From Clostridia bacterium (GTDB taxonomy: Bacteria; Bacillota; DUOV01; Zhaonellaceae): DNA of 40,638 nucleotides. The notes beneath the pieces are model-generated. The model saw only the letters and a list, made by a program, of their open reading frames with translations. It did no database searches and had not been told where the DNA came from. Below, one piece after another: positions 1-5,543 of this stretch. Where the stretch lies: contig DUOV01000100.1 of assembly GCA_012838615.1 (NCBI GenBank), forward strand, positions 1 to 40,638. The letters are read 5' to 3'. The translations under genes were made by a program, and so were the position numbers. Within the stretch, counting starts at the first letter, position 1, and the number at the start of each line of letters is the position of its first letter.

Positions 1-65
1 ATAACAATTGAATTACATTAGAAAAGACTAAACCAGCAGGGAAATTATACCAGCAAAAAAGCTAG

Positions 66-91
66 AAAAGCCCGTAAAATCGGGCTTTTAT
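66..91 (+). terminator. Intrinsic terminator at left edge
   Basis: A 9-bp perfect stem (AAAAGCCCG / CGGGCTTTT) with a six-base loop ends in a short U tract. It would end a transcript entering from beyond the left edge of the window. Nothing recognisable lies in positions 1-65. Confidence 0.75.
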
Positions 92-123
92 AAATTAGGC
101 TAAACTGGATTAAATAAAGATTA

Positions 124-185
124 TAGGACTCAAAATCCAGCGGGGCTCACCCCCCGTGTCGGTTCGACCCCGACCTTCGGCACCA
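124..185 (+). pseudogene. 3' part of tRNA-Leu(CAA), 5' half missing
   Basis: The 3' part of a leucine tRNA is intact: anticodon loop CTCAAAA (anticodon CAA at 131-133), a long class-II variable arm (CGGGG 141-145 pairing CCCCG 152-156), a T arm (GTCGG / CCGAC around the loop TTCGACC), the acceptor strand CTTCGGC at 175-181, discriminator A and encoded CCA to 185. The 5' acceptor strand (expected GCCGAAG) and the D arm are absent upstream. Homology stops in the 5' side of the anticodon stem, where T124 and A125 no longer pair well. Such a fragment cannot fold into a tRNA. It matches the duplicated 3' end left by an integrase at the far side of an element inserted in a tRNA gene; a plain deletion remnant is the alternative. 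Confidence 0.85.
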
Positions 186-359
186 GATATACTGAATTTA
201 GAGATTTACTTGTATTCAAGTTAATCTCTTTTTTGTTTTAAAATTGTTTTTAGATTGAATTGGAAGTAGAATATTGTAAAATTATTTTAAGATTAAAAGT
301 GAATAAAAACTACATCAAAATAACCTAATCTAGGTAAAAGCCGTTTTGTGGAGGAGCTT

Positions 360-2832: not shown

Positions 2833-2906
2833 ATATAGTTTAAGCTCTTATTTGAGGAAGAGGTTTTGGTAAGAATAATATTAATTTAACTTTAGGAGTG
2901 TCAAAT

Positions 2907-5543
2907 ATGTATTCTGATAAAAAGCTAATGATTTTAGATGGAAATAGTCTTATCCATAGAGCGTTTTACGCGTTACCAATCTTAACAAATAGTAAGGGAA
3001 CTTTTACAAATGCTGCTTATGGTTTTACAAACATGTTGTTAAAAATTATTAAAGAGCACGCGCCAGACCATATAGTTGTAGCTTTTGATAGCGGCAAAAC
3101 TTTTAGACATGAAAAATATGAAGAATATAAGGGAACTCGTAAAGCTACTCCACCAGAATTAAAGTCACAATTTCCCTTGGTACATAAAATTCTCAAGGCG
3201 CTAAATATAGCAACCATCCAGTTAGAAGGGTATGAAGCTGATGATTTAATAGGCACCATAGCTAAACAAGCTGAAAAGGAAAACTATCAAACTTTTATCG
3301 TGACAGGGGATCGGGATGCCTTTCAACTTGTGAGTAGTGCCATAACTACAGTCATAACTCGTAAGGGAATAAGCCAGCTAGAAATTTATAGCCCAGAGGT
3401 AATTAAAGAAAAGTTCGGGATTGAGCCTGCCCAATTTCAAGATGTGAAAGGCCTTATGGGTGATGTTTCTGACAATATTCCTGGAGTGCCAGGTATTGGT
3501 GAAAAAACAGCATTAAAATTGATTAAAGAATATGGTAATATTGATAATCTTTTTAGTAACTTAGAGGATTTGACTCCTAAGCTAAAAGAAAAGCTCGTTA
3601 GCTATAAAGAACAGGTTTTTTTAAGCAAAAAACTTGGTACTATCCATTGTGCTGTTCCCGTTAAAATTGAATTTAATGATTACAAGTATCAGGAACCTGA
3701 CCATGAAAAGTTATTAGCTATCTTCAAAGATTTGGAATTTAACAGTTTAGTACAAAATGTAATACAATCAATGGAAAGCGAATTAAAAGAACAGCAAGCT
3801 CTGCTCAATTGGGAGCTTGCTAACACTTATGATGAGGCTATGGCTATGCTAGAAAAGCTACCAAAAGAATTTGCCTGTTATGTAGGTTTTGACCAAAAAG
3901 ATTATTTAAGAGCCAATATTACAATTATCAGTATATCTTGGGGTGAAAAAACCTTAGTTATTAAGACGGATACGATGCAGAATGATGAGCTAAGCCTTAT
4001 TTTAAAACAGATTTTTGTTGACCCAACGCAGAAAATTATTGTATGGGATTTAAAAAGCATTTTGGTAGCAGCCAAGGTACGAGGAGTAGACGTAGAGTCT
4101 ACTTTTGATGATATTATGCTGTTAGCGTATTTGTTAAATCCCTCTGCTTCTAATTACGAACTGGGTAAGCTGAGCTTAGAATACTTAAATAGACCGCTGC
4201 TGCTCCAGGAAGATACTACTGAACAGGCTTCTCAGATGGCAGTTGTACTATGGGATTTACGAACAGTTTTAAAAGAAAAAATCCGTGAAGACAACATGGA
4301 AGAACTTTACGAAGAACTAGAACTGCCTCTCGAGTATGTTTTATCTGATATGGAATTACAAGGGGTAAAGCTTGATAAGCATATACTTTCCCTAATGGGT
4401 GAGAATTTAGCTCAAAATATAGCCGGATTAACAAAGGAAATATATGAAATTGCTCAAGAGGAATTTAATATTAATTCACCAAAGCAGTTGGGAGTTATTT
4501 TATTTGAAAAGCTAGGGTTACCTCCTATTAAAAAGACTAAAACTGGTTATTCTACAAGTGCCGAAGTTTTAGAAGAATTGGCTGAAAGGCATGAGATTGT
4601 TGCTAAAATATTGGAGTATCGACAGTTAGTCAAGTTAAAAAGTACATATATAGACGGTTTAATGGCTTTAATAAGTCCGGCTACTGGAAAAGTACACACT
4701 ACTTTTAATCAGACCATTACGGCTACCGGAAGGTTAAGCAGTACAGAACCTAATCTCCAAAATATACCTATTAGACTTGAAATTGGGCGGCGTATCAGAA
4801 AAGCATTTATTCCTTCAAGTCCTGAACAGGTTTTAGTAGCAGCAGATTATTCTCAAATTGAGTTACGGGTTTTAGCTCATATAGCAAAGGATAGCAATCT
4901 TATTGATGCTTTTCTAAATAATCATGATATACATACCAGGACTGCAAGTGAAGTATTTGGAGTACCGATGTCAGAGGTAACTAAAGAAATGCGCCGACAA
5001 GCTAAGGCAGTAAATTTTGGGATAGTCTACGGTATTAGCGATTTTGGTTTGAGTCGGGATCTTGGAATACCGGTAAGTAAAGCCAAAAAATATATAGAAC
5101 TATATTTTAGTCGTTATCCAGGAGTGCAGCGTTTTATTGACGCAACAATTTTTAAGGCAAGGGAGCAAGGCTATGTTACCACTCTTCTAAATAGACGGAG
5201 GTATTTACCTGATATTTATAGTACAAACCGTAATGTACGAGGGTTTGGAGAAAGGGCGGCTATTAATACTCCAATTCAAGGTAGTGCAGCTGATATAATA
5301 AAATTAGCGATGCTTTTAGTTGTTGGGAAAATACAAGAAGCAGGTCTTAAAACTAAAATGATCTTACAAGTTCATGACGAGTTGATTTTTGAAGTTCCTA
5401 AGGAAGAGCTTGCCGAAGCTACGGTAATTATTCGTAATGCTATGGAGCAGGCTTATCAACTTGATGTACCTTTAAGAGTAGATATGAAAGTTGGAGCAAA
5501 TTGGTACGATATGGAGGAAGTAAGGATGGGGAAGAATGCCTGA
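2907..5543 (+). CDS. polA: DNA polymerase I
   Basis: This is the repair and Okazaki-fragment polymerase, 878 residues from the ATG at 2907 (AGGAG eight bases upstream; an in-frame GTG at 2898 overlaps that site). Domains in order: a 5'-3' exonuclease (about 1-290, LMILDGNSLIHRAFYA, GDVSDNIPGVPGIGEKTA), a 3'-5' exonuclease-like domain (about 300-470) and the polymerase domain (about 500-878). Motif A (VAADYSQIELRVLAHI), motif B (RRQAKAVNFGIVYG) and motif C (LQVHDELIFEV) are all present. In the middle domain the metal-binding D-x-E at the expected position reads GFDQKDYL, so proofreading is probably lost, as in many Bacillus-type enzymes. It overlaps mutM by 8 bases. Confidence 0.98.
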   Translation: MYSDKKLMILDGNSLIHRAFYALPILTNSKGTFTNAAYGFTNMLLKIIKEHAPDHIVVAFDSGKTFRHEKYEEYKGTRKATPPELKSQFPLVHKILKALNIATIQLEGYEADDLIGTIAKQAEKENYQTFIVTGDRDAFQLVSSAITTVITRKGISQLEIYSPEVIKEKFGIEPAQFQDVKGLMGDVSDNIPGVPGIGEKTALKLIKEYGNIDNLFSNLEDLTPKLKEKLVSYKEQVFLSKKLGTIHCAVPVKIEFNDYKYQEPDHEKLLAIFKDLEFNSLVQNVIQSMESELKEQQALLNWELANTYDEAMAMLEKLPKEFACYVGFDQKDYLRANITIISISWGEKTLVIKTDTMQNDELSLILKQIFVDPTQKIIVWDLKSILVAAKVRGVDVESTFDDIMLLAYLLNPSASNYELGKLSLEYLNRPLLLQEDTTEQASQMAVVLWDLRTVLKEKIREDNMEELYEELELPLEYVLSDMELQGVKLDKHILSLMGENLAQNIAGLTKEIYEIAQEEFNINSPKQLGVILFEKLGLPPIKKTKTGYSTSAEVLEELAERHEIVAKILEYRQLVKLKSTYIDGLMALISPATGKVHTTFNQTITATGRLSSTEPNLQNIPIRLEIGRRIRKAFIPSSPEQVLVAADYSQIELRVLAHIAKDSNLIDAFLNNHDIHTRTASEVFGVPMSEVTKEMRRQAKAVNFGIVYGISDFGLSRDLGIPVSKAKKYIELYFSRYPGVQRFIDATIFKAREQGYVTTLLNRRRYLPDIYSTNRNVRGFGERAAINTPIQGSAADIIKLAMLLVVGKIQEAGLKTKMILQVHDELIFEVPKEELAEATVIIRNAMEQAYQLDVPLRVDMKVGANWYDMEEVRMGKNA

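Follow-up and report, generated by a model that had tools for sequence, protein, structure and literature searches.

A truncated tRNA-Leu(CAA) gene as the probable scar of a mobile element in a draft genome of the Zhaonellaceae

Islands and elements that integrate at tRNA genes provide the closest described counterparts of the locus considered here. Among the 3919 islands in Islander, a 3' tRNA fragment accompanies 3760, and the site is centred on the anticodon in 2083 (PMC4383910). ICEBs1 of Bacillus subtilis integrates in a leucine tRNA gene, trnS-leu2, at a 17-bp attB in which 7 bp of spacer separate the 5-bp arms of an inverted repeat (PMC3715440). Here, we describe a tRNA remnant at the left end of a 40,638-nucleotide stretch of DNA (‘the window’), which is the entire contig C36 of its source genome, G000, a 2.55-Mb draft of a Clostridia bacterium in 222 contigs. 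Like the Islander islands of the anticodon-loop (‘A’) sub-site, G000 combines an intact tRNA gene, here on another contig, with a displaced 3' fragment of equal orientation whose breakpoint lies in the anticodon stem-loop; unlike them, neither island nor integrase is seen at the site, and 8 of 59 positions disagree between the 3' halves. The likeness to ICEBs1 lies in the leucine tRNA target and in the geometry of attB, which is that of an anticodon arm such as CTGGA-CTCAAAA-TCCAG in the window; unlike ICEBs1, the G000 site, where the element is unassembled, yielded no ICE genes. Proviruses in viral contigs (the L107/L122 pair, L101, L127 and others) share the target gene and the breakpoint, and have a tyrosine integrase within 150 bases. 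They differ from the G000 site in that the element is present, and in that the 3' halves are identical where both tRNA copies occur.

Positions 126–185 of the window (+ strand) hold the 3' portion of a tRNA-Leu(CAA) gene, which extends from the anticodon stem through CCA and has no 5' half; they form the putative attR. The match starts at G126, which is base 3 on the 5' strand of the anticodon stem, and runs ungapped to the CCA at 185; the two bases before it, ‘TA’ at 124–125, fall outside the tRNA sequence. An earlier note on this DNA, made from the letters alone, had recognized this tRNA 3' end, and alignment confirms it: from position 127 the fragment agrees at 59/59 positions with the intact tRNA-Leu(CAA) in the sister genome G002, and at 57/59 with its counterpart in the other sister, G001, an agreement far beyond chance. 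ARAGORN reported no complete tRNA at the fragment, and the Rfam tRNA match, over 99–182, is sub-threshold (21 bits versus a gathering threshold of 29). The segment GGACTCAAAATCCAG (126–140, +) is common to the fragment and the intact copy around the anticodon, by base-by-base alignment of the window, contig C8 of G000 (discussed later), G002 and G001; together with the equal breakpoint of the viral-contig loci, this marks it as the likely crossover region. The anticodon loop, CTCAAAA, occupies 129–135 (+) within it.

We considered whether the remnant might be a decayed, full-length tRNA pseudogene, and rejected this. The 30 bases before the fragment show no significantly closer likeness to the tRNA 5' half than do sites elsewhere in the window (of 2176 control positions, 11% match it equally well), and the 5' half therefore looks absent, not decayed. 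Directly 3' of the fragment, at 200–235 (+), is a terminator-like hairpin with a T run, presumably the original tRNA terminator (hairpin at about 200–229; −12.6 kcal/mol, z = −3.2), and so the remnant resembles the native tail of a tRNA transcription unit that has lost its front. On the other side, 125 bases separate the fragment from the left end of the contig. This left-hand sequence (1–125), the putative right end of the integrated element, has only short, chance-level matches elsewhere in the genome; it includes a strong terminator-like hairpin at 66–89, found by pattern scan and scored on the − strand (−14 kcal/mol, z = −4.0).

To the right, the core genes that the earlier note had placed there are indeed present: an ECF sigma factor (951–1583, +) and polA (2898–5543, +), both assigned by Pfam. 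The orthologue of the former adjoins tRNA-Leu(CAA) in G002, and the gene order around the latter is kept in relatives, and both serve as anchors of core synteny; a scan of genome contigs with polA returned distant relatives only. Between the fragment and the ECF gene is a 116-aa open reading frame (348–698, +) with no Pfam, PHROG or NCBIfam family, and no relative in G001, G002 or the viral contigs.

The same breakpoint recurs outside this genome. A pattern for the tRNA-Leu(CAA) 3' half identified 31 loci in viral contigs, a few of which are near-duplicates of one another. Sixteen are intact, counting L125, which has a variant 5' half; the other 15 lack the 5' half and are cut at the anticodon stem, as in the window. 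In G039, a genome from outside the family, the tRNA is cut in this way also, and a 369-aa tyrosine integrase adjoins it. Using a profile grown from this integrase, we detected a tyrosine integrase 108–144 bases from the tRNA half at 12 of the 15 truncated loci, mostly upstream and on the same strand. Four provirus contigs have an intact and a truncated copy together, with identical 3' halves (L107/L122, L110/L113, L118/L102 and L124/L100), and these serve the integration model as positive controls. The suggestion that the window's identity block is one used by tyrosine integrases is thus upheld to this extent, that its breakpoint is the breakpoint of elements that target tRNA-Leu(CAA). Judged by analogy with those elements, it is a case of classic anticodon-loop integration.

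Several observations in other genomes may be set beside these. In G034, also outside the family, a tRNA-Leu 3' fragment cut at the anticodon stem (L019:1500-1604, on G034:C141) has flagellar-looking genes downstream, and the contig stops just upstream. In G035, likewise outside it, a C-terminal piece of a tyrosine integrase (L069:3062-3478) lies 88 bases past an intact tRNA-Leu(CAA), on the opposite strand; the 19-kb stretch contains no second tRNA fragment. And within the family, in G002, paired direct repeats, TTTTGACACCAATTTTGACACCAA, occur right after the tRNA terminator (L063:10319-10642) and resemble the integrase-end repeats of L107 and G039. No integrase accompanies the G002 repeats, which seem to be what is left of a further insertion at this tRNA.

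The sole other copy in G000 is an intact tRNA-Leu(CAA) on contig C8 (10666–10754), in the same orientation as the fragment and 38 bases from the right end of this 10.8-kb contig. The 3' halves of the two agree at 51 of 59 positions (86–87% identity), and some of the differences are paired changes in the variable arm and the T arm. The earlier note had expected the intact copy to repeat 126–185 at its 3' end; a repeat is there, at 87% and not exact. G001 and G002, which represent sister genera and are the only other genomes of the same order in the comparison, each carry a single intact tRNA-Leu(CAA) of the same type as the fragment (G001 has another 76% match besides). The C8 gene differs from that of G002 at eight positions, all 3' of the anticodon stem, and its 3' half is nearest (56/59) to a tRNA at the edge of viral contig L119, which has phage late genes. 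Since the copies differ and the family sequence is in the fragment, comparison of the sequences suggests that the fragment probably derives from the host, as its displaced half, and that the element supplied the 3' half of the intact gene. Of the arguments for a native fragment, the exact sister-genus match is the stronger part. The first 30 bases of tRNA-Leu(CAA) are nearly invariant among relatives, so the 3' position of the C8–G002 differences proves little by itself; and the orthologous tRNA-Leu(GAG) genes of G000 and G002 are 20% different, so vertical divergence is possible, and the divergence of C8 alone is no proof of a foreign 3' half. We entertain tentatively, at a little under an even chance, the reading that attP was divergent: that integration swapped half of the only detected tRNA-Leu(CAA) for a foreign version, different at 8/59 bases, and left the native half as a scar. 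This would be element-driven remodelling of a tRNA gene in which donor and native halves are both still readable.

C8 is very likely the left neighbour of the window, a placement that draws on sister gene order, a split hairpin and similar composition. In G002 the order is pyk(+), minC(−), about 8 kb, tRNA-Leu(CAA), ECF sigma factor and polA, and in G001 minC, the tRNA and the ECF gene follow one another as in G002. In G000, pyk ends 35 bases from the left end of contig C105, minC opens C8, the tRNA closes C8, and the ECF gene and polA open the window. The ends of C105 and C8 have seven bases in common, in the middle of a hairpin (the pyk terminator) that is split between the two, and these contigs are therefore consecutive. 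In G+C, C8 is 38.5% and the window 35.6%; the tetranucleotide distance between them is 0.14–0.18, compared with 0.13–0.16 inside the window. With C8 on the left, the order becomes intact tRNA, gap, 3' fragment and core genes, as integration predicts. There is no overlap between the end of C8 and the start of the window, and neither window positions 1–125 nor the last 62 bases of C8 match any other G000 contig. The C8 right end breaks inside the tRNA terminator hairpin, just as the C105/C8 break falls inside that of pyk, and hairpins may be the cause of contig breaks in the G000 assembly. No contig start carries, in the orientation needed, the right arm that the C8 hairpin lacks, AAGCCTTGATTT. 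One feature of the site departs from the relatives: in G000 the tRNA points toward the ECF gene and polA, whereas its direction is away from them in G001, G002, G036, G039, G004 and G026. This would be accounted for by a local inversion, whether it preceded or followed the insertion.

Taken together, we think it likely, and hold with good confidence, that the fragment is the attR scar of a mobile element—a temperate phage or an integrative element—inserted in tRNA-Leu(CAA) between C8 and the window. Such an element, carrying the 3' half of tRNA-Leu(CAA) as its attP, would have integrated into the host tRNA-Leu(CAA), the crossover falling within the anticodon stem-loop. Fusion of the host 5' half with the 3' half of the element would restore a functional gene, now the intact copy that closes C8 on the right (attL); the host 3' half, with its terminator, would be displaced to the far end of the element, as window 126–185 (attR); and the element, or its remains, would lie in the unassembled gap. 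Integration is favoured by the breakpoint, the family-type sequence of the fragment, the intact copy on C8, synteny, and the occurrence of the same architecture with integrases in other genomes. The arrangement follows the Islander type in that the displaced 3' fragment starts in the anticodon stem, a known crossover sub-site, and relatives have an uninterrupted tRNA of the fragment's type. The candidate far-end tRNA, in the same orientation once the contigs are ordered by synteny, is on a separate contig and 87% identical. The linkage of C8 to the window through an element, the tyrosine type of the integrase and the identity of the foreign half are what we infer. Against the model stand the following: neither copy has an element, integrase or phage gene assembled beside it; XerC and XerD are the only tyrosine recombinases of the genome; the two copies are imperfectly matched, in contrast to those of the four provirus contigs; the model leaves unexplained that the tRNA runs opposite to its direction in both sisters; and the contigs do not overlap.

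Searches for the element itself went as follows. Beyond the 125 and 38 bases that separate the two tRNA copies from their contig ends, no element DNA is assembled, and neither copy has an integrase or phage gene next to it. The G000 assembly contains no phage-type tyrosine integrase, only XerC, beside hslV, and XerD, beside deoB (neighbour names were read from the open reading frames); the place where an integrase would be expected is the unsequenced gap between C8 and the window. When public viral contigs were searched with end sequences of the element, the C8-type core, the window-side hairpin and a relaxed core all failed to match exactly. Phage records gave one 81% match to the C8 3' half, and none to the fragment. 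Serine integrases were considered as well, and set aside: G000 has two large serine recombinases (on C157 and C42), neither with a link to the tRNA site. C42 itself (L144, 5940 bp) has genes that resemble DNA methyltransferases, perhaps a restriction gene, and the large serine recombinase, which is truncated at the contig end; it is possibly another mobile island. The earlier note's prediction of an element to the left with a complete tRNA at its far end is accordingly borne out in part, since the contig that synteny places on the left ends with an intact tRNA-Leu(CAA) of matching orientation; the element is absent from the assembly.

The alternative that survives best is a variant of this explanation, in which the element has since been lost or has decayed, leaving the scar alone and little or nothing in the gap. 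An assembly with neither integrase nor element contig is what this would produce, and decayed remains occur at the same tRNA elsewhere, namely the integrase piece in G035 and the integrase-type repeats in G002. We consider it unlikely, if still a serious contender: the fragment has not drifted from the sister genus (59/59), which points to recent displacement, and draft assemblies often miss mobile elements for technical reasons. Rather improbable, in our judgement, is a true scar of which C8 is not the partner, the tRNA-Leu(CAA) on C8 being separate and vertically inherited and the fragment stemming from another event or from a tandem array. The 87% identity of the copies, the lack of overlap between contigs and the vertical divergence of tRNA-Leu(GAG) would suit such a history; synteny in both sister genomes sets C8 directly left of the window, however, and the corresponding interval of each contains a tRNA-Leu(CAA) of the same type as the fragment.

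Still harder to credit is a tRNA pseudogene formed by ordinary duplication or deletion without an integrase. The window by itself presents a truncated gene only, and no integrase is nearby, but the breakpoint equals that of the integrase-linked copies in viral contigs and G039, the 5' half is gone without visible decay, and the resident intact gene is not the source of the fragment's sequence. Finally, a chimeric contig end, fusing a piece of tRNA-Leu to the ECF–polA region, would suit the fragment's terminal location and an orientation opposite to that in G001, G002 and four other relatives, but is the least probable of all, since a break exactly at an attachment core, with the tRNA's own terminator downstream, would be unexpected of an artefact, and the intact C8 copy has the matching orientation.

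The probable integration of a phage or integrative element at this tRNA is a new instance of a common, well-understood process, and the biology is otherwise ordinary. For the finishing of this genome, it indicates that an element probably lies between C8 and C36. More generally, comparison of a displaced tRNA half with sister genera can reveal which half is native, and the site flags a hot spot of integration in the Zhaonellaceae, a sparsely sampled bacterial family.
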